From Amanita rubescens (taxonomy: Eukaryota > Basidiomycota > Agaricomycetes > Agaricales > Amanitaceae): a stretch of 64,000 nucleotides of DNA. The stretch is taken from contig WION01000127.1 of assembly GCA_015039365.1 (NCBI GenBank), forward strand, positions 1-64,000, given 5' to 3'. The notes beneath the pieces are model-generated. The model worked only from the letters and a program-made list of their open reading frames with translations. It was not told where the DNA came from and made no database searches. The position numbers and the translations under genes are program-made. Positions 6,428 to 64,000 of the stretch are shown here, piece after piece. How positions within the stretch are numbered: position 1 is the first letter of the stretch; each line of letters starts with the position of its first letter.

Positions 6428-8620
6428 TAGCATTGACGCTGCTCATGCTGGTGTGAAAGGATACCTAGCGAATGGATCTATTTCAGCTGCGTTCGGAAAA
6501 GGCCAGCTTACTCATACCTATTCCTCGTGTCCAATGACCAAGCTTGAAATTAAGTAAGTCGTGGTAGAATTGTGTCCAAAGGATTGGATTAATTCGGAAA
6601 CAGGGCTGAAATAGTGCGGTGGGTTGTCGAAAGCTTGCGCCCATTTGAAGTTGTCGCGGATCACAGATTCAAAACCCTTATGAAGACAGGTCGCCCAGAG
6701 TTCTACCTGCCCCATCCGTCAACCGTGTCATGCGATGTTCGATTAGTATTCAGACGCACCCGCAAGAGGATCGCCGAGATGCTGCAGGCATATGAAGGTG
6801 CCCTGAGCTTCTCCACCGATGCCTGGACATCTGAGGCCAGTCATCGTTTGTTTGTCGCAATCATTGTTCATTTTGAACATAATGGATCGCCGTTAGCAAT
6901 GGTTCTTGACGTGATAGAAGTGGCAGAGGTAAGTTATGAACTGAACTCACCACGGCAAGCATCTGAGTCCATCTTACAGCATCACACTGGCATTGTGCTT
7001 GCGCAGGTGTTTGCGCGTGTTCTCAACAGTTTTGGTATCTCTGACAAAATTCTGGCGATCACTGGCGATAACGCATCAAATAATGATACTATGATCGATG
7101 AGCTTGAAGAAATCGTACTGGAGTTCAATGGCTCAGCTGCACGTGCTCACTGCTTCTTGCATGTTACTAATTTAGTCGTGAAATGCTTGATAAATCAATT
7201 CAATGCTAGTCATTTTAATCAAGATGAAGTCGATAAAATGGAAGCACAGGGTATTGCCATAGCTGCGGATATGGTGACGCATGGGCCCCAGAATGACGAG
7301 GATGAGGAGGAAAATAGTTTGGATGATGAGGACAGTATTGTTGATGGGCTCATTCTGATGACGGCTCAGCAGCGCCAAAGTTGAGGCCTCAATAAGGCCT
7401 ATATGATTGATTCTTCTAAAGGTATGATAATGTGCTGTGGTTCACAATAGTGAAGTCTGACTCGACCTGATCAGCTTCGTAAACTGAGCTTCAAAATGAT
7501 AAACTCGCCCACTAGCTTGCTTCCTGCATGGGAATCTGCATTAAAAGATGCCAGTCTGGATGTCAGATGCATGCCACGTGATGTACGAACCCAGTGGAAC
7601 TCAACGTATGATATGCTCCACTTCGCCTTGGAATACCGAGAGGGGATTGACGCCATCACGGACAAGGTACGACTAGGCATTGACAAGTTGGGCTTGAGTG
7701 AAGCAGATTGGAAGCTTGTGGAGCAGTTGCAAGACATTTTGCAGGTGAGACTCTACACTCTGCCACGTCACAAGCAATGACTGACGTTCTGCTCTACATC
7801 CACTGCTATTCTCACCCACGGTCCCACTCGGCCTCATGTCCCATTGCCTGAACCCTTGCCCTGCGCATGCCCTACCCACACACCAAAACCCATTCCATGC
7901 GTACAGGTCCTGAAAGAGGCAATGCTTTACTTCTCTCAATCGAAGCCTAATCTCGTGATGGTAATCCCCGCTATGGATTACATTGACGAGATATTCACCA
8001 CAGGATTGTTAAATGAGAGAAGATTGGATCCAGCTATCTGCGCCGCAATCGGCCTCACTAAAAAGATGCTCAACTGATATTACAGTAAGATGGATATGTC
8101 TAGTGTTTACAGGTCAGGTCAGGTTAGGTTATTTGCCCAAATTTTGAATAACTGTGACTGTAACCGGTTATTGAATGACCCCTAAACCTAGTAACTGTAA
8201 CCTGACCAGTTGTAACCGGTCACAACTGGTCAGGTTTGTTGAAACTAGGGGTAACAAGTCCCTAGCGAGCAGCGCAGTCTAGTACATGGAATGTACTACT
8301 TACCGAGTGTGGTGTGGAGTTGTTAAGAGCTTACTGGAGCTGGGGCTCAACAGTAGACAGTAGAGAGGATAATAGGATGAGGATTGACGCTACTAGAGTA
8401 CAGTTTATATACTACTAAACTACAAATAAGTACAAAGAGTCTTATCAGTATGAGTCAAAGGTATTTGACTCATAAGGCGTCATTCCACAGCAATGCACAG
8501 CTATTGTACAGCAATGCATAGCTTTGCGCAGCACTTGACTCATCAATTATATTGACTGACTCATCACATTATCAATCTTCAATGTGATAGGTTGATAACC
8601 ATAACGTATATATGTCTTCT

Positions 8621-8850
8621 ATTCTCATGTCAACATATATTCACATCATCAATAGTTCCACTATTATGATTGGATGATCTTATGAGAATATCTCTAGGAT
8701 ATTCTCATGTCAGAATATGTTCTCATCATCAATCATCCACTATTATGATTGGTAGATGAGTATGAGAATATGTCGAATATATTCTCATGTCAATATATTA
8801 TCTCACACTCAATCATCCACAATTATGATTGGTTGAGAGACGAGTAAGTA
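8621..8850. repeat. 80-bp tandem repeat, three units
   Basis: ATTCTCATGTCA begins at 8621, 8701 and 8781, an exact 80-bp period. Units share ATCATCCACTATTATGATTGG and TATGAGAATAT; the pair TATTCTCAT/ATGAGAATA makes each unit able to fold back. The array lies inside the non-autonomous element at 8101-9610. Confidence 0.85.
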
Positions 8851-8979
8851 ACTGAGCGTTATTACATTAGTTAGTGTAAACTAATGATATCACTTATATT
8901 TACTATATACTGTATGTATATCGTATATTATAAGTTCAACAAGGTTAACCTTGCATAACCAGTTATGACCAGTTAAAAA

Positions 8980-9270
8980 TCTGCAAATAGAAATTGAAAA
9001 TGCTCCACCAATTTCAGTCCCATCACCAGTGGAGTATTTTGCTATTCTTTCTGAGGGTTAGTGGCATGTATGTATAGGATAATTTGCAAATAGACATAGA
9101 AAATCCTCCACTAATTGCAGTGTTGTCATTGGCAGAGTATTTTGCTATTTTTTCTGATGGTTGGAACTTGGTGGTGGCATGTATATGATAATCTGCAAAA
9201 TAAAAATAGAAAATGCTCTGCCAATTGCAGTGTCATTATTGGCAGAGTATTTTGCTATTTCTCTGAAGAT
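8980..9270. repeat. Diverged tandem repeat of about 110 bp, three units
   Basis: Three units each contain a TGCAAATAGAAAT-like word, a CCACCAATTTCAGT-like word and GGAGTATTTTGCTATT (starting near 8980, 9083 and 9193). A related inverted segment, GGGCAGAGTATTTTAAGG, occurs near 26060. Confidence 0.6.
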
Positions 9271-10406
9271 TGTGAGGTAGAGAATTGGGAGGTATAGTGG
9301 TCATGTAGTCATCTTTTTCAAAATTTCTTTTTAAATTCATGGGTGTATCACTTTTAGAGCTCAAGACATAGGGTAATTCAAGATAATATAGACAGTGTAG
9401 TTCACAACAAATAACCCATTTCAAGTTGGTCATCATAACTGGTCATGACCAGTTATAGACCAGTTATACCAATTGGGCCATTTGCCATAACTGTAACTGT
9501 AACTGATCACTGACCGGTATAACTGTGACCGATGGTCAGGTTATAACTGGTAGCGGTTAGGTCAGGTTACAGTTATTTTCCAGTTATTGTGACCTGACCT
9601 GTAAACACTAGATATGTCGGACTTGTACAGAATTGCTATGAGTACGTGCTTATAATTTATTCTCTATTCCTCCACAAGAATTAACTCAATAACCGCAATG
9701 CTTCACCCTCAACACAAACTGGAATACTTCAAGCACGCTAAATGGTTGGAGAATTGGATCGCGACTGCGCGGGAACTTTTGCGCTCAGCCTATGAGTACT
9801 CATATGCGGATTGCGTCATTCCAAATGCCGACAAGCAGGCCAAAGAAAAGGGCAAGGCGAAAGAGAATAGTAAGGCATCTAAACAGAAGGTGAGACTGCC
9901 ATTTAGTACTATGAGAGAGGAGCTCAGTTTTCTATGCCTCATCAGGAAGAAAAAGTGAACATATTCGATAATTTGCCATCGCTCACCAAGCCCAAAATGT
10001 CGCGCCTCCGCGATGAACTTGGAAACTATCTCGCAACCAATATAGAAGAGGTGGATGACCCAATTGCATGGTGGAACAAATGCTGTTCCGTCTATCCACG
10101 ACTCTCATGTATGGCGCTGGATTATTTGTCGGTCCCTGGTAAGTTCAAATTGACTTATTCTATACAACCACTTTAATAAATGAATTGAATAGCTATGTCC
10201 GTTGACTTTGAGCGACTTTTCAGCCGTGGCCGTAATCTTATATCCCACACTCGAAACTGTTTGGCAGCTCAGACTGAGCACGCTATCCTTGCCTCAGAGA
10301 CTGGAGTTTGTTAGGGATGATCAAGAATGATGATCTCAAGGCCGTGGCTGCCATGCAGGACATTCAACAAACTGAAGTCATGCCAGAGGGGTGGGATGAT
10401 ATTTAG

Positions 10407-10575
10407 AGTCGTTACCAACTACTAGTAGCTACTATGTGCCAAGAATAGAGGGTTAACCCATCACCGGTTTATACCCGTAACCCGTAAAAGCTTACCCGTT
10501 GAGAGGGTGTACCCATGCCTTGGCAGGTATAACCCGGCCATGGGTGCGGGTGCGGGTCCACCTGCCCACACCTGC
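10407..10575. repeat. hAT subterminal repeat region (ACCCG words)
   Basis: Dense TACCCGTAACCCG, GCGGGTGCGGGTCC and GCGGGTTTACCCG words directly follow the hAT transposase stop. Such clustered short words are typical transposase-binding subterminal DNA of hAT elements. The terminal inverted repeat itself was not located. Confidence 0.5.
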
Positions 10576-12194
10576 GGGTTTACCCGTGCAGATCTCTACT
10601 CCTGGTAGACTCCCAGGACTCCTCTGGACTCCCTGTATGAGGAGTCCACAAGGAGTGTAAGGACTCCTTGTTTCATTCCTGTTTATGTGGTCATGTGACA
10701 TGACCAGTTGGTCTGTGCGCAGGCCCACAGGTATATAAGGAGGGGGCATCTGGCACATATCCCCCAGCACCCCCTCGGAAAAAGGGGGGGCAGTGGAGAT
10801 AAGATTAGATAGATAGATAGATAGCAGCTTAAGTAATATGATGGCCTAGATAAGATAAGATAAAACATAACAAAATTGAAAATTGCCTTTTATAGAGGTG
10901 TGTCATTATGTAATGTGTGACTATGACAAAAAAAGATGTGCCTAGCTTTTGTGATTCAGAATATGCAACAATGATAATGCCAGATAAAGTCAAACATGAG
11001 ATATTTGCAAAATACATTTTCAAACATAGCTTTGAAAAAAATCAAAAGAAATCAAAAAAAATACCAAAAAATCATGTGATCACATCTGTGCAAGAATTGC
11101 AGTGCCAAATGCTGCCAAACTCAAGATATTTGCAAAGTACTGTTTTGAACACCTGTCTTTTGAACCTGATCTGATTGTCTGATTGCCTGACTTGTGCTGG
11201 AACACTGGTTGTCTGTTGTCTGATATTAACTGATGACATCTGATTGTTGTCAGACAATCAAACAACCAGTTCCAAGGCTGAATGAAATGAGGCTCCATCT
11301 TACATATAAGAGCTGAGCCCTGTGATGTTTTGTAACACAACTTTAAGATGGCAGCAATTTCCATGTAGAAACACCATGCACATAACAAAGATGATCAGGA
11401 AGAATGGGCCTTGGATTTGCTGCTTTGCATCCCATACCCTCCAAGTGTCCCAGCACCAGTCAGGCAATCAGGAATCAGACACCATCAGATGTCAGATTTT
11501 TGGCATGTTTTCTGATGCTACTCACCATTGCACAAGTCACTGCAACTGACTTCCAGCACTTCCAGTCACTCATAACCACCAGCAACCCCAACTTCCTAAA
11601 ACTGACCAAACTTGATCATCACCAGACACCCCTCCTAAATTGACTTTGCAGGTGGTCACAGTGACATGGACTCATGGCAACAAACAGACTTTTTGCATTC
11701 ACATTTTAGCTTATTTAGTTTGGCATCACTTGCATGTCCTTGATCAAATGGGACATTTTCAAGATTATTTTCAAACTTTACAATTCCCTCACACTCACAT
11801 CTGAAAAGGTCTTTTGCAAATATTTCAAGTACTTGGCATTATTTGGTTTTACAATAAGTCCTATATGACCTGGATCATATGAATTTTCAGGTTTTTATTG
11901 CAAGTATAAACATTGCCAAACAACATGCATGCCTGCCTGAAATTTGGAAAGCAGCATGAAATTGCACATGAGTGTAAAGTACTGGTGATGTCAGTCTACG
12001 TACATACTGTAGGATGCAATAGGAATGGCTGGAATGAGTAGGAATCCTGATGGATTAAGTTTCCATGAAGATGTGACTCAGTTACATGTGTGCCTTCAAT
12101 ACACAGGCATGTGAACATTGAACGCCTAGGTGACTAGGTGGTTATGAGAAAATACTGAAAAGGATGATTAGCAGCAATTTTAACTGGTTCCTGC
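10576..12194. other. AT-rich repeat-derived tract without genes
   Basis: No credible ORF. About 10585-10680 has many GGACTCC/GGAGTCC words. Around 10690-10765 a block with TATATAAGGAGGGGGCATCT is the reverse complement of a block at about 26110-26180. A GATA run (AGATAGATAGATAGATAG) lies near 10810. Positions 11529-11960 are a diverged copy of the repeat seen at 25123-25680 and 29681-30125 (shared start GCACAAGTCACTGCAA). Confidence 0.6.
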
Positions 12195-55962: not shown

Positions 55963-57062
55963 GTCATTAAACTTTGATCGGATTGGTAGTTTTCCGTGTT
56001 CAAGACTGTTAATGATGATGTTTGTGAACTTATCTTCTGGTAATAGTTTGGTGATTTTGTCTGCCCATGACGTGTAGATTGCGGTGATAACCATGTCTTT
56101 TGTGATCATGGTTTACGGAATTTCCTTCGCTTTTGCTTCTTCTTCATAAATATGGTCAGGGCATCTCAATAAAGAGTCTGCCTGAATAAGTTTTGATCCA
56201 GGCGGATATGTTCCAACTTGATATCAAATTCAGTAATCTCCTGCCACCAACATGATTGTCTGGTGGTCATTTTCTGTGGATGTTTGTAATATGATAAATT
56301 CTTGTGATCACAATGGATCACTATCATGTGCGGACTTCCTTTAAGAAGGTGTTTCCAGGTTTCGAATGCTTTCTTTATTGCTAATAACTTGCGATCATAG
56401 ACTTGATATCTCTGTTCAGTATCACTTAACCGATGACTAATACATATATCCGCATGGGTGCAGTTCTCCATCAGATCCCTGTTGTTTCAGGATGGCACCT
56501 ACCGCCCAATTTGATGCATTGGTCTCTAATAAAAACAGTTTCATCAGATCTGGCATGACTAGAACTAGTTCTTCTAGGAATTTCTCCTTCAATGTGTCAA
56601 ATGCTTTTTGACACTCTGCATCCCATTGGAAAACAACTGATTTCTTCATGAGTTCCATGAGTGGAGCCACTATTTCAGCATAATTTCCTATAAATTTCCT
56701 GTAAAAATTCACAAATCCTAGAAATGACTGAATTTGTTTAATGGTTTTTGGTTCAGGCCATTTGCTGATTCCAGCGAGTTTTATGGGGTCCATCATGATC
56801 TTTCCTTCTTTGACAATCATCCCAAGGAACCCGACTTCCTTGGCAACAAATTTGCATTTTTCCAGTTTCAGGAACAGATCATTTTCTTTTAGCCATTGTA
56901 ATACTTGTTTAGTGTGCTCCCTTGTTTCTTCTTCACTTGTTCCATAAATCAACATGTCGTCAATATAAATGACTAGCCATCCTTCAGCTATCATATCTTG
57001 GAAGTATTTGTTCATCATGGTTTGGAATGTTGACAGTGAATTGCATATCCAAAAAGCATAAT
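55963..57062 (-). pseudogene. Ty3/gypsy RT-RNase H fragment
   Basis: Minus-strand fragment: STFQTMMNKYFQDMIAEGW, VIYIDDMLIYG (YIDD catalytic motif), FLGMIVKEGKIMMDPIKL, IQSFLGFVNFYRKFIGNY, LLETNASNWAVGAIL (RNase H, first Asp replaced by Asn), a frameshift near 56440-56470, then YQVYDRKLLAIKKAFETWKH and CDHKNLSYYKHPQK. It is cut on the 5' side at 57062 by a hAT-like fragment and runs out on the 3' side at the hAT end at 55962. It is a different family member from both gypsy elements above and cannot be active. Confidence 0.9.
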
Positions 57063-57250
57063 GGTTAGTGATTCAAGGTCCAGTCCGGTCTGGTTTTTTT
57101 TCCTTTTTTGGAAAGACTGAAACTGGACTGGTCTCAGGGTGTCCCTGATATTGAAAAGACCGGAACTGGACTGCTTAAGACCGCAAGACCGGTCTTAATT
57201 TAAAAAAAAGACCGGTTAAGACCAGTCCAGGACTGGTCCTGGTCTAGACC
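57063..57250. mobile_element. Short hAT-like fragment (GGTCCAGTCC words)
   Basis: Begins TAGTGATTCAAGGTCCAGTC and is filled with AAGACCGGT/ACTGGACTGG words to about 57250. The right end is degenerate. It truncates the RT fragment. Confidence 0.4.
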
Positions 57251-57582
57251 AATCCTTACATTAGTTTCTATGTCCCTGTGTCTCCCTGTAAAGTGGATAG
57301 GTTGATAGAGGTTGATAGCTTGTATATACTCGAACGCACAGTGCACAGGACCAAATGTATTGGGTGAGCCGTGCTAGTGTGTGCGTATGATGAAGTAATA
57401 GTGGGCTCCTTATGTAATGTGTCAATGCGTGAATATAAAGTCACGTGTGACTTGATCTATATACAATATATCTATGGGAGTTGTTCCACAACTCCCTGGT
57501 CTTCAGGCTTGGAGATCCTCTGGATCTCCATATCCATGAATATCCATCTGGGTTCCAGGATGCTCTTGTAGCTTCCTTACAC
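57251..57582 (-). repeat. LTR-like sequence (minus orientation)
   Basis: Read on minus it starts TGTAAGGAAGCTACAAGAGC at 57582, preceded by a polypurine GTGGGGGAGAG, and contains a GAGTATATAC TATA word near 57330. It includes perfect hairpins with arms GGGAGTTG/CAACTCCC and GGAGATCC/GGATCTCC. No partner LTR is in the window, so it is called LTR-like only. Confidence 0.4.
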
Positions 57583-58420
57583 TCTCCCCCACAAGATCAT
57601 GTAGTGATCTTCAATTGAAAATGCAGATGTGAACGAAAATTGGGCTTGAGGACATTGATTCATCTCAAGAAAATTCCCCAAGGTGATTGTATAGCCCTCA
57701 CATCCTCCCCCACTCGCCACAAGGTACAGGGCGAAGGTAGAACTGAAGGGAGAAGAGATTTCCGTGCAAAATTCAATTTGGGGCACCATTTTCCGTGGAA
57801 AGACAGTAAATCGTCGCAGTAATTTACTTTTTCTCTCCTCAGAGGTGTAGAGTAGTCATAGGTGCTTGTTCCTTTCGAAAGCGAACATTTCCGACGCGAT
57901 GTGAGTGAGAACGAGCCTTCTGAACGTTTGACAAGGGTGCGTGTCGAAATTCGATGTTCCTTCCATGTTTGGAAGTTCGTCACAGAGTGTGACCGACCAG
58001 ATTTCGAGGGAGGAGGCTGCAGGTATTCTCAAGTGGCGTAGATGGGGATTTTGACTTGTAGAGAGATGCCTGCGTATATAGACTTCACTCAGAACAAGCT
58101 TGAAGTCTAGACATCGAAACGGTGGGTCGGTGTGAACGTTTGAAGCTTGGGCGCGTCGGCGTCGGTGTGACTTCCGGATAAGGAAGGTCGTGGGTTGCCT
58201 GGGTCTTCGTGGTCATAGTGTGCTGTACTTCAGCACGTGGTTGAAGGGGCGTTGGGAGCTTCCCAACATGAACTTCTGGCAGGATCCAGCCGCCTGAGCA
58301 AGGTCCAAGCCTCGCTAGAATTGGACGTGATGAGCGCTCAGCGCGCGTCGGGATTTCGACGAGCCTTCCAGATTTGGAAGGTCGGTGATCATGTGACACG
58401 CGACTTGCGCGTCAAGTCTG
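57583..58420. other. Hairpin-rich DNA, coding status unknown
   Basis: No recognised gene. Contains many short perfect inverted repeats, for example AAGATCA/TGATCTT (57593-57611), the 17-bp palindrome GTTGGGAGCTTCCCAAC (58251-58267) and CCTTCC/GGAAGG (about 58363-58381). Confidence 0.5.
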
Positions 58421-58429
58421 TTTATCGCT

Positions 58430-60197
58430 AGGGGTGTCCAGCGATAACGATGAGAAGGAGAGCTCCTATCGACTGGAGCTTATCAAACGATACGGTGACG
58501 GCTACAAGAGCCATCTATACTCCTTCCACGCGGCAGAGAGGCTGGGAGAACGAGTGAGAGAGAGAGGCAGCGACGACGTGAGGTTACGAGGACAAGGTGG
58601 GTTCCTCGTCCCTCTTCTTTTCATTCTTGGTGACTGACTGATGGCGACGTCGACATGACCAGGTGCTGCGGCAGGAGGTGCGGATGAGACAGCATAAACG
58701 CGATCTCGGAGGCTAGTACTCGATCACGAGTGGTTGGGTGAATTCTCCCCCACAGAACGTGTTCTGGGGAGAATGACGTATGGCGTGGATACCAGGTGAG
58801 CACCCAGTACCGTTCTCGTTGAAGTAGCTGACACGTCTGTGCCTAGACGCGTATATCAACTCGACGACGAGGATTCAATCCTCGTGTGTTTCGACAGGAT
58901 GGGAACGGGACCGGGAGAGGCCCGAGTGTTGTCATCGACGGAGAGGGTGCTGGAGTGTTGGAAAGGGTGCAGGTGGCAAGACAGGACGAGGGCGAGGGCG
59001 GTATGTCTTTCCTTATCTTTTCTCTTCAGTTTTCTCGCTGACAGCTTCTTGTAGCATTGTCGTACAGGCGCGGTAGACCTTGAACGGACCGACGTGAATG
59101 GGAAGAGCCAATAATGCGCTTTGGGGAGTTCATCGAAACTCTCCAGCGCTTTTGGAGATGCCGAATAATCGACTTAGACTCGTCGCGAGTCTCTTCCCCC
59201 AGAAAAAATTTCCGGTGGAGATATTGGGATCCTCGGGATAGTTTCCCGAGCGCGTGAGCATAGTAGGTAAGTCCTACTATGTCCGTGATAGGGTTTTACT
59301 GACAACGTTGAAATAGCATCCTCGTACGTGGATTATCCGAGCAAGTGACCATCAAAATTGAGAGGGAGGCGGGAGTAGGATGTCTTCGAGACTATGCAAG
59401 TCTTGTCATTCCAGTTTTCCATCCTTGTATTGACAATTCAAAGAAACCGGCGTGGTTTCTCAAGTAGACGGATTGAAAGGGATGTTTTCAAGGCCTGGAC
59501 TGTATGTCGGCCTCGAGGTTAGGACTTTGCGTCGACCTCTCCTTTGTCAACATCAATGAGCCTTGCAAGTAAGCAGCCACGAGTGCAGCCGAAGAGTGAG
59601 GGAAGGGACAGGGACTACCAGTAGGTATGTCTCTTTTCCTTTCGGCTCTCGTATTCTCGCTGACTGCCGGATACACCAGGTGCGAACTTCCCGAGTACGC
59701 AAACGTCTAATGGACATGGACGGGTTGGGAGTGCCGGTAAGTCTTCGTATGTTTTCCTGAGAGTTAGTCTAAACTCTCGGTTGGTTTATTATTTCATAGC
59801 GAATCACGTTTGACTCGCCAAGTCCCTTCCCCTTCAAATGAAGAGGAGCAAAAATTAGGTGTTCGGAGTAGTGTGTCTCCGTGGTTGGAATTGATTAAGT
59901 CAAATAATTAGGCGAGTTGTATGTTAACTCAGATTTAGTTGTTTTGCTGATAATTATCTTCATAATTTACAGATTTACAAGTTTGAAGGACTCGGAATCA
60001 CGGTGAAGCCAGCAACGAACGAGACAAACGAGAATATTGACAACGCGGAGATTCCGCGCGACGCTCGTGGGTTAGGGAGTGACCCAACTCAATTGTTGTT
60101 TCAGCCTCGGGACCGGGATCATTTCCGAGTACTAAGATTGACAGTTTGGGCGGCATCGTTTCCGCCCAGTGTAGGTGTGAGTGATGTTCACTCATAA
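58430..60197 (+). CDS. Multi-exon hypothetical gene (possibly two), short introns with hairpin donors
   Basis: Plus-strand exons with GT...AG introns of about 50 nt (one 84 nt) and CTGAC branch sites. Supported exons: 58430-58594 (YRLELIKRYGDGYKSHLYSF), 58847-59000 (RVYQLDDEDSILVCFDRMG), 59055-59093, 59178-59266 (LPPEKISGGDIGILGIVSRA), 59317-59467 (ILVRGLSEQVTIKIEREAGV, stop TAG), then 59680-59736 (KRLMDMDGLGVP), 59800 onward (RITFDSPSPFPFK) and 59973-60197 (IYKFEGLGITVKPATNETNE, stop TAA). The interval 58663-58795 is not resolved. The start codon is uncertain. The internal stop at 59465 means either two genes or a broken one. No known domain recognised. Several donors sit in hairpins, for example arms CATAGTAGG/CCTACTATG around the donor at 59267. 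It converges on the minus ORF that ends at 60232. Confidence 0.5.
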
Positions 60198-60231
60198 CAT
60201 TTGTTTTACTGACGACGTTATCATAGGTTTG

Positions 60232-63200
60232 TCATCTGTAGCTAACCGCAACGTCAGGCGGCTTAAAGCGGGTGCGCCGAATACATTCGACGCTCGTGGA
60301 ATCAGGAGTTTCCGCCCACCACGAAGGTTCAGGCGGAAGCGAGGGTGGCGCGTTCGCTGTGGCCTTGGTGTCGACGTAGGCATAAGAAGGAGGGGCTGAA
60401 GTGGGAGTCTTGTCATCTTCGTAAATGATTGTGTACTCCGTCTCTTCAGCCTCGCGATTGTGGATTGCGCAGAAGGTAATGACACTGAGGACCTGCGTCA
60501 TTCTCAGCAACCTGCCAAGACTACAGCCAAGGTCGAAAGCGATGGCTTGGCTAGCGCGTTTGGGTATAGGTAGTGTGAGCACTACCACGGGTTGAGGTGA
60601 ATACGCAGCGGCACTCCTGTTGAATGACTGACTGATGACATTACAGGGATATCGTCGGAGCGAAAAGGACCAGTCGAGTTCGTTACTCGATTGCTTTGAA
60701 GGTTCAACCAGTTGACGCAACGCGCTATTCAACTGGGTCGTTGGTAGAGACAGCACGGGATTGGCGAACGCCGATGAGGGGATCGACGCGGGAACCGTGC
60801 AGAGTGCTGGTGAGTGCGGGTTTTCATTTATTCCAACCGTTTCACTGACGGCGTCTAGGACTCGTTGTAGGGATGAATCAGGACAGTCAAGTTCAGTGCT
60901 CGACTGCATGGGAGAATGATCCAGCCGGAGCATAAAGCTTTCCAGCTGGGAGATTGGGTAGACCTGCTCAGGATCGGCAGGCGCTGGTAGCAGAGGTGGC
61001 GAGAAGACCACGCGTGGAGGTGAGCGCGAGACTGCACTCGTTTCCTCGTTGCTGACTGCATGGGGGTCTCGCAGTTGGATCTCTGCCTCGTTAGGTGGTT
61101 CCGCATCTTGAGGATCATCTTCAATGCGTTCCTCGACGTAGACGGACTCTGGGAGTCTTTCCTCGCGATTTTCCGAGATTTCAACATGGGATAGTCCCAG
61201 TATGGGCTCAGGATGGCGCAGAACCAGTTTCGAACAGGGAATAGAGAGCTCAATGGCTCTCGGGATGTTGAAGTGCTGAAGAGCAGCCTCGGGTTGTACC
61301 GGAGGGGTTTCGGAATCTTCGGGTGAGCATGCACTCATGCTCAAGTCTATTTCTCTCCTAACGACGAATAGGCTCAGTCGTTGGGATGCGGACTCATTTG
61401 TCTTGTCCGGTGGACCCTTATGGATACGACGAATGGTTTCGTCGCAATCGAGTGAACGTCTACGTCTGCGTTCTTGAACATACGCTGCGGCACTCGCTAA
61501 ATACTTTCCTTCTGAAGTTTCAGAAGGATGATTGTCGGGTTTAGACTGTCTTCGAACAGTCTCGGGTCTTCGTGAGTGTGATTCACTCACTATAGATCTG
61601 TCATTAACGACACTTAGATCTTGTCGTCTAGATACCACCTCAATAGGTGGTTTGTCCTCGTCTAACGGGTGACGAGGAGACTCTTCTTGCGGAGGATGGA
61701 CATGAGAGGCGGTAGGAGCAGGGACGGATTGAGTGGACACCACCGAAGCATTAGGTGAGGAGGTTTCCTCACTTATGTGCTGTATACTAACGACGGTGGC
61801 GTCATAGACCCGCCGTTCCTCCCCCATTTCGATTGGAAGCAAAGAAAACTGGACCCGTACATCAACAGGTCCAGGACTAGACGTAGAGCGTTCAATTACA
61901 CTCTCCTTTAACGTTTCGAGAGGCGCTGGTGCGTTCCTCTCGATTTTAACAGCCTGTTTAAGCTGTTGCAGCTTTCTCGCAGTGGATGCGAGTGAGGTTT
62001 TACCAGTCCGTGGGTTTACGGCTGGTTCTGGGACTTTGGAACGAGCTTCATTCTTTTGGTGAGTAGTTTTACTCACAGCCGGTTTCGTACTGACAACACG
62101 AGATTCACGTCGTTTAGAATCATGAGGAAATGAGTAGTTTGGCTTAGCACGGAGCTGCGAAGGGGTGGCCGGTATTGAAAAGACTTGTGAAGGTTTTAGT
62201 ACCAAGGAGGTTTCCTTGGAAAAAGGTACGTGTTTCAAGGAGCTTGCTATCTTCCTTGTACTAACGACCTTTCCGATTCGAAGGTTCGATTCGGACACAG
62301 TCGCGGTTATTCGACCGGATGCGACCTTCAGGCTTTGACAAATGATATCGTCGTGAACAGAGGAGCATCGAGTTGTACGCTCCTGAGCATAAGCTGTGGC
62401 TTTAGTATGCGGCTTTCCTTCCGTCATTTCAGAAGGAACCATCAAGAGTTTGGACTGCTTCCGAGCGGTCCTAGGATAAGGTGAGTATGATTTACTCAAC
62501 CTTGTTGCCTTGCTGACAACGTTCCGGCTGTGTTGTCGTGGTACCACCTCAATAGGTGGCTTATCCTCGTCCGTAGGTTCATCCGAGGCTTCAGCTTGAC
62601 CAGGGAGGACAGGTGAGGTGATGGGATTGGGAATCGGCAGCGCAAGGACTGCCACGTCATCAGGTGAGGAGTTTTCCTCACTTCCTCGTCATGTACTGAC
62701 GCCACCATAGTCATGTTGTCTTGGTACCACCTCAATAGGTGGTAAGAGCTTGTCCAGCGATCGACGAGGAGGGCTACCACATGCAAGAGCTGATGAGATG
62801 ACTTCCTCATCCTTTTTACTGTGTATAGCGTTGACAACATCTATTAGGTCACATTGTACCCGTACTACCTTAGCGGGTGGTGTAAGCTTGTCCGGAGATG
62901 CGCAAATGGATGCAGCCGTGAACGGAGGGACTTCCGAGGCCGCAGGGGGTGGAGCCAGCAGTGCGGAGGCCGCAGAAGCACCAAGTGAGGAGTTTTCCTC
63001 ACTTTCTCGTCGTATGGTAACAACGGCGTCATTTCTTTTAGATACCACCTCACGAGTGGGTTGATGAAGGGTTGCGGGTGGTGATGGGCGAGTGACGAGT
63101 ACACGAATGGGCAGCATAGCATCTTCCGGGACTGGTGAGGGTACTTCCTCACATTTGATGTTCTGTATATTAACGATGGCATTACTGACGTGCCGTTTCT

Positions 63201-64000
63201 CCCCCATTTTACCAGAGAATAAAGAAATATAGCCGGGCGCGCTCACGAGTCCAAGAGCATTAGACGAGCACGCGGGTATGTGCTTATTTGAGATTTCGGG
63301 AAGTAAGGGTGAGCTCCCCTCTACTTCTATAATTTGTTCGAGTTGAACTACCTCTCGTGCAGCAGGTGGTGCCTTTGGACGAGCTTTGTCCGTTAAGTGA
63401 GTAATTTTACTCACTCTTGGCTTCAAGCTAACAACACGAGGTTCGCGTCGCTTAGAAAGCCACGAGGGTGCAAGAACCAGCTCGTCATTAGCCTGGACAG
63501 AAGGATTGGCCCGTATAGAGGAGATGGGCAAAGATTTGGACAGCGAGGGGGCTGTCTCGGCCAAGGGTGCGTAAACTGTTGTGTTCATTTGTTCCTTCGT
63601 GCTAACTTGAACTTTTTCATTTCCAATTCGAACCTTCGATTTGGATGAGGCACGAGGGTTAGGAATGCTCGGAGGCGTAGCAACAGCAACAACTCGACTC
63701 GGAGACTTAAGCGAGTTTCCGACAACCTCAGCACTTTTGTCCGGAAGTTTCTGGACAAGTACGGAAGGCTTCCGTACTGGAGGTTGTCGATCCTTTTCAC
63801 GTGGAACGGACTTCGACGGCGTATGAGAGATGGATGATACCATCTTCTTTGATGATTCCGAAGGAAACTTTCTTCGTGAATCTAAGCCACGAGCTATTGC
63901 TGGCTCGTTGGACTTTCTCGGTGAACTCCTCTGGAGCTCACGAGATGTGAGAGTGGAGTCCGGCTTCAACGAGCTCGGACGCTCTTGAGCACGAGTCACT
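60232..64000 (-). CDS. Long repeat-containing hypothetical ORF, partial, one internal TGA
   Basis: One minus frame is open from the window edge (63999) to 60232, at least 1255 codons, broken once by TGA at 62691-62689. There a homologous repeat copy has an Arg codon (CGA), so it reads as a CpG-type nonsense change. The protein is low in structure, rich in Ser, Pro, Arg and Glu, with internal repeats: KPPIEVVPRQ / KPPIEVVSRR, PSEMTEGK / PSETSEGK, MGEERRV / MGEKRHV, SSTELD / SSNELD. The best repeat pair is offset by exactly 909 bp (303 codons), which preserves frame. No domain recognised. The opposite strand carries many intron-like modules, so an alternative spliced plus-strand reading is not excluded. 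The 5' end lies beyond the window. Confidence 0.45.
61480..62760. repeat. 909-bp offset direct repeat within the minus ORF
   Basis: Hairpin modules at 61543, 61572, 61634 and 61754 recur at 62452, 62481, 62543 and 62663, each exactly 909 bp further on. The copies are diverged but keep the hairpins. Further, more diverged copies continue to about 63650. Confidence 0.75.

Follow-up and report, generated by a model that had tools for sequence, protein, structure and literature searches.

Analyzing a 64,000-nucleotide stretch of the Amanita rubescens genome (the window, C32:1-64000, of contig WION01000127.1), we found that its hairpin-rich right end is a recently inserted long terminal repeat (LTR) retrotransposon, most of whose length lies inside the window. 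The element occupies the minus strand at C32:57287-65087 (7.8 kb), so that its right end, at about 65.1 kb, falls beyond the window. Tentatively, and with less than even confidence, we read its sequence as pointing to an antisense RNA that would be spliced and self-folded and may thus avoid annealing to the genomic RNA and RNA interference (RNAi). A first-pass annotation of this DNA had described an array of short hairpins; the LTR element, its long minus-strand frame, its large family and the antisense introns go beyond it.

A 298-bp direct repeat, 57287-57584 and 64793-65090, delimits the LTR element at 7,801 bp. The LTRs are 295 bp each, with 3 differences between them, and read TGTAAGG...TTTACA. 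The parts of the element are as follows:

57282-57286, target-site duplication, CTCCC on the plus strand and GGGAG on the minus strand; its partner, C32:65088-65092, lies outside the window
57287-57581, minus strand, 3' LTR, 295 bp; the 5' LTR, C32:64793-65087, lies outside the window
57582-57592, minus strand, polypurine tract GTGGGGGAGAG adjoining the 3' LTR
57593-60231, minus strand, 3' noncoding part of about 2.6 kb, hairpin-rich (15 stems of at least 7 bp versus 1.6 shuffled)
60232-62688, minus strand, downstream part of the long frame, 818 aa, without a Pfam match
62689-64000 and on to C32:64638, minus strand, upstream part of the long frame, 649 aa, ended by an in-frame TGA at 62689-62691

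Full copies of the element (n = 7) share 73-90% pairwise identity, and all seven are bounded by terminal direct repeats ending in TG...CA. Six of them have an exact 5-bp target duplication, different for each insertion, and 0-3 differences between their LTRs, the exception being C157, which has no duplication and 12 LTR differences. Exact duplications of their own together with so few LTR differences indicate that those insertions are recent. The polypurine tract GTGGGGGAGAG stands beside the left LTR and CTTTTTTGCAC beside the right LTR in 7/7 copies. The element belongs to a large family with many genomic matches: over the 75.7-Mb A. rubescens assembly, to which all genome-wide counts refer, exact matches of the GTGGGGGAGAG-LTR junction number 30 (control, 2), and the junction TTACA/CTTTTTTNCAC that follows the 5' LTR (C32:64782-64797) occurs at 68 places (control, 0). 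tRNA primer sites start with TGG; here the primer-site position holds CTTTTTTNCAC, without that usual start. As a guess, the U tract at this junction might base-pair with a poly(A) terminus, which would be an unusual priming mode.

We take the minus strand as sense because the polypurine tract and the long frame agree, an assignment made somewhat doubtful by a purine run, AAAAAAG, at the other end and by the absence of a primer site of the usual kind. On this strand a single stop separates two open stretches of 818 and 649 codons; in five other copies the frame is open for 1,517-1,587 codons, and the remaining sense frames hold 40-104 stops. No Pfam domain was matched in the long frame. Substitution rates are nearly equal across codon positions, and dN/dS is 0.58-0.84 (12 comparisons) versus 0.65-0.92 in 6 shifted-frame comparisons. 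Because codon positions are flat and dN/dS lies near the shifted-frame values, the openness of the frame seems to be kept while its residues are only weakly constrained. The element appears to be non-autonomous, and we infer that it uses the enzymes of another element; no autonomous partner was identified in this analysis.

Hairpins are far more abundant in this element than expected. Stems of at least 7 bp number 22 at 56-60 kb and 24 at 60-64 kb versus 3.4 and 3.3 in dinucleotide shuffles (n = 10), bearing out the excess suggested by the first-pass annotation; counts in the window's other 14 bins range from 0 to 17. Its spacing of one hairpin every 40-70 bp, however, was overstated for perfect stems, since the 71 stems of at least 6 bp with start positions from 57476 to 63889 lie about 90 bp apart on average. 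Within the long frame, nine of nine copies have 18-42 stems of at least 7 bp versus means of 2.0-4.5 in synonymous-codon permutations, which never exceeded 9 (50 permutations), making the real copies 7-11 times richer, or roughly ninefold. The 3' noncoding part has 12-18 such stems in 7/7 copies versus 1.5-2.1 in dinucleotide shuffles, and 12 further related-element loci, some of them near-duplicates, have 13-33 per 3.1-3.3 kb versus 1.7-2.7. No hairpin excess was found in two host stretches or in one Gypsy element of the same contig, and a second control Gypsy showed a mild excess. A search of Rfam with 57-64 kb gave no match at gathering score and two below it (28.3/45 and 31.4/60 bits), the second outside the element.

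Individual hairpins, listed here without strand, illustrate the pairing:

61507-61528, hairpin TCCTTCTGAA gt TTCAGAAGGA
61543-61562, hairpin AGACTGT/ACAGTCT
61572-61590, hairpin GTGAGTG/CACTCAC; GTGAGTA/TACTCAC in other copies is a paired change
61634-61651, hairpin ACCACCT/AGGTGGT
61885-61904, hairpin AGAGCGT/ACACTCT; copies C2 and C252 carry two-sided changes at two adjacent pairs
62452-62471, hairpin GGACTGC/GCGGTCC, the 909-bp-offset relative of the 61543 hairpin, with paired changes

Of eight hairpins placed by the first-pass annotation, six are exact; GTGAGGA/TCCTCAC is one base off (61755-61772), and CCTCGTC/GACGAGG is present but a few bases from its given place (61655-61678). The compensatory changes that it read between repeats offset by 909 bp are there: between AGACTGTcttcgaACAGTCT (61543) and GGACTGCttccgaGCGGTCC (62452) the outer pair goes from A-T to G-C and the inner from T-A to C-G, with one T.G, and GTGAGTG/CACTCAC (61572) becomes GTGAGTA/TACTCA (62481), the offset copy also being without the outermost pair.

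Comparison across copies supports the proposal of that annotation that the fold itself is kept: the rate of change in stems is two to three times below that in loops, and paired changes are in excess over most controls, one tree-based count being weak. In 12 copies (21,264 pair comparisons) the per-site change is 0.081 in stems, 0.209 in loops and 0.173 in flanks, and 454/603 double changes preserve a Watson-Crick pair. Doubles make up 0.212 of changed pairs, versus 0.125-0.135 when partners are slid by 1 and 0.078-0.097 when slid by 2-3. With local filters applied, 97 loci gave 45 distinct double changes (29 Watson-Crick) versus 25.4 +- 3.6, and partner shuffles reached at most 36, with 0/300 attaining 45. 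When pairs were counted over 14 rows, 91.5% of cells were paired versus 90.5, and 44 cells had changed on both sides versus 21.8 +- 3.4 (0/500 shuffles) and 7-17 at slides. Close copies change at 0.011 in stems and 0.037 in loops, with 48 single and 2 paired changes, and 0/307 of their hairpin comparisons have three or more arm changes. The slow change of stems agrees with purifying selection; replacement of one arm from the other would not slow it. A spread of palindromic units, another early suggestion, is not supported, as hairpin sequences differ and no arm replacement is seen between close copies.

Wobble pairs may tell which RNA folds, since what reads as A.C on the sense strand becomes G.U in the antisense RNA, and equal A.C and G.U are expected from loop rates. 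A.C exceeds sense G.U in cells (1,040 versus 735, 12 copies), in distinct occurrences (130 versus 95 at 104 loci, a fraction of 0.578 with a bootstrap interval of 0.524-0.631) and in close copies (24 versus 12). We read these nearly symmetric counts as selection that would act on both RNAs and slightly more on the antisense.

In addition to hairpins, the window plus strand, antisense to the frame, carries conserved intron signals, so the suggestion of a structured RNA or splicing control came near the mark. With the pattern donor GTRNGB, branch CTRAC and acceptor YAG, antisense signals number 10, 4, 6, 4, 6, 6 and 8 in the seven copies versus about 1 shuffled, and sense signals 0; with wider patterns the sense strand of C7 gave 1 in one scan and 3 versus 13 antisense in another. 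The predicted antisense introns (n = 49) are typically 50-60 nt long (median, 53 nt), and they outnumber sense introns in 11/12 related loci, the remaining one having none. In the predicted introns the rate of change is 0.078 for donors, 0.078 for branch sites and 0.111 for acceptors; matching motifs located elsewhere on the antisense strand change at 0.187, 0.168 and 0.191. These rates are non-independent counts given the relatedness of the copies. The few intron look-alikes of the sense strand follow no consistent pattern (0.137, 0.109 and 0.221 versus 0.113, 0.218 and 0.176 elsewhere). Since donors partly lie in stems (24/49 antisense donors are inside a hairpin versus 20/358 donor-like sites in shuffles), conservation is better judged from branch sites and acceptors. 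Stops interrupt all frames of 14/20 predicted exons, and therefore no spliced protein is proposed. Because introns are retained in new copies, the RNA that is copied would be unspliced, making the frame's strand the probable genomic RNA. No description of conserved antisense introns in such elements was found in the literature searched. The predicted introns in the window are these:

58597-58662, plus strand, predicted antisense intron
58796-58846, plus strand, predicted antisense intron
59001-59054, plus strand, predicted antisense intron
59267-59316, plus strand, predicted antisense intron, second donor at 59254
59625-59679, plus strand, predicted antisense intron
59919-59972, plus strand, predicted antisense intron
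60177-60226, plus strand, predicted antisense intron, donor in hairpin
60575-60646, plus strand, predicted antisense intron
60810-60858, plus strand, predicted antisense intron
61020-61074, plus strand, predicted antisense intron
61323-61371, plus strand, predicted antisense intron, donor in hairpin
61755-61807, plus strand, predicted antisense intron, donor in hairpin
62059-62117, plus strand, predicted antisense intron, donor in hairpin
62226-62283, plus strand, predicted antisense intron
62481-62555, plus strand, predicted antisense intron, donor in hairpin and acceptor in next hairpin
62664-62710, plus strand, predicted antisense intron, donor in hairpin
63397-63455, plus strand, predicted antisense intron, donor in hairpin

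The reading that we tentatively prefer, avoidance of sense-antisense duplex, ties together the antisense introns, the nearly symmetric strands and the spread of hairpins over coding and noncoding parts. Transcription of the element from both strands would give double-stranded RNA, and the host genome has matches to RdRP and Piwi domains. An antisense RNA, if produced and spliced, would no longer equal its target, and, folded into short hairpins like that target, it would anneal less to the genomic RNA. A perfect stem can fold in both RNAs, so that Watson-Crick pairs would be favored and G.U in either strand tolerated about equally. Duplex avoidance could then be the selective force. The more specific claim, that a sense genomic RNA, a multi-intron antisense RNA and hairpins folding in both make up an evolved shield against duplex formation and RNAi, we consider unlikely. 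To our knowledge, silencing escape through antisense splicing and self-folding is known for no retrotransposon.

Several observations weigh against duplex avoidance. Short stems slow annealing without forbidding it. Two of the five pair-counting measures fail to exceed shuffles, namely pairs with a both-side change (19 versus 15.9; 68/500 shuffles) and further pair types (72 versus 79.2; 500/500 shuffles). Unfiltered tree-based covariation is weak, with 165 same-branch doubles versus 136-150 at slid partners, the same count standing against 67.6 when events are dropped at random. Moreover, single-mismatch stems show no strand lean (13 versus 12), single splice sites are lost in some copies, and a nearby gag-like frame has 16 hairpins versus 2.3 but no antisense introns, so the two features are separable.

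Other explanations account for parts of the same evidence. The antisense RNA may itself be functional, a spliced and structured long noncoding RNA (lncRNA) such as a copy-number regulator, with the sense hairpins its mere complement; conserved intron signals on that strand and the wobble lean favor this possible but doubtful alternative. A fold needed in only one RNA, however, should clearly favor that strand's G.U, and the lean is small and absent in single-mismatch stems. Transposon-derived antisense lncRNAs have been reported in a fungus, Blumeria (PMC10648671), which also speaks for a functional antisense RNA. It is rather unlikely that the many short stems instead work in the sense genomic RNA, where they would be dispersed signals for its packaging or compaction by a Gag-like protein, the element's own or another's. 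The excess does span the whole element, coding and noncoding, and the nearby Retrotrans_gag/zf-CCHC frame is hairpin-rich too, but sense G.U is not favored over A.C, no common sequence was seen among the listed loops and the antisense introns are left unexplained.

Those introns are equally unexplained if selection acts on the inverted repeats as DNA structures, either cruciforms or folds of single-stranded cDNA, an improbable reading despite its agreement with the near symmetry between strands, because hairpin sequences differ and a single sequence-specific binder is thus unlikely. Least probable, and very much so, is that template switching in reverse transcription creates and re-perfects palindromes as a functionless by-product. 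It predicts the perfect, strand-symmetric stems of a reverse-transcribed element, but it also predicts a stem rate near the loop rate, contrary to the slow stems seen among all copies and among close copies alone; multiple arm changes are missing from close-copy hairpins, and the same-contig Gypsy without excess also argues against it.

Further sequences touch on these features. The gag-like frame, hairpin-rich and with Retrotrans_gag and zf-CCHC matches, lies at C32:76866-80000 on the minus strand. A second family, C7:44969-50104, has LTRs of 185 bp, a frame of 1,268 codons and junctions GTGGGGGAGAG and CTTTTTTACAC, with 17 hairpins versus 3.8 and 4 antisense introns versus 0.8; a 5' LTR and junction of this family also occur on C32 near 89.2 kb, on the far side of a nested Gypsy (C32:80013-88466), and may belong with the gag-like frame. 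Adjoining the element, a Gypsy-like reverse transcriptase frame fragment of 211 aa (56437-57072, minus strand) was recognized by visual inspection and because it matches the Gypsy at C32 83 kb, and a GACCGG/GGACTGG inverted-repeat cluster lies just outside the left LTR (57100-57245). Elsewhere in the window, 8199-11260 is also hairpin-rich, with stems up to 15 bp (17 of at least 7 bp in 8001-12000 versus 3.6 shuffled), and contains 80-bp and 103-bp tandem repeats that may explain part of the hairpins there.

Comparison with known systems shows both likeness and difference. Many similar short introns recall the introner-like elements of fungi, but here they lie inside one mobile element, antisense to its frame. 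Some RNA viruses have genome-scale ordered RNA structure in coding and noncoding regions, and the element likewise shows pairing over both beyond codon-based controls; unlike them, it is a retroelement with perfect local stems and near strand symmetry. The early statement that no described nuclear system fits was too strong, since plant LARDs and TRIMs (Sukkula, Cassandra) are described as LTR elements without gag or pol, mobilized in trans and with conserved RNA secondary structure (PMC7215508). Such conservation is seen here by sequence comparison, with the one tree-based count weak. However, LARDs are said there to encode no protein, whereas the Amanita element keeps a frame of about 1,500 codons open, as seen in five copies, and because of this we did not adopt the LARD label. 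In addition, the Cassandra fold pairs LTR with LTR, in contrast to a chain of short local hairpins, and antisense introns, predicted here, are not mentioned for LARDs or TRIMs in the passages of PMC7215508 considered. Antisense RNAs of fungal transposons are also described in Blumeria hordei, where transposon-derived lncRNAs are discussed with RNAi (PMC10648671); those were seen as RNA, whereas the Amanita antisense RNA is predicted only, although its splice sites are conserved across divergent copies.

The usual view is that a retroelement's proteins hold it in shape. In the Amanita element, short stems and antisense splice sites are conserved and the residues weakly constrained. Should antisense splicing and folding prove true, a mobile element would shape the strand opposite to its own coding region, and escape from RNAi could be tested directly in a mushroom with RdRP and Piwi genes.

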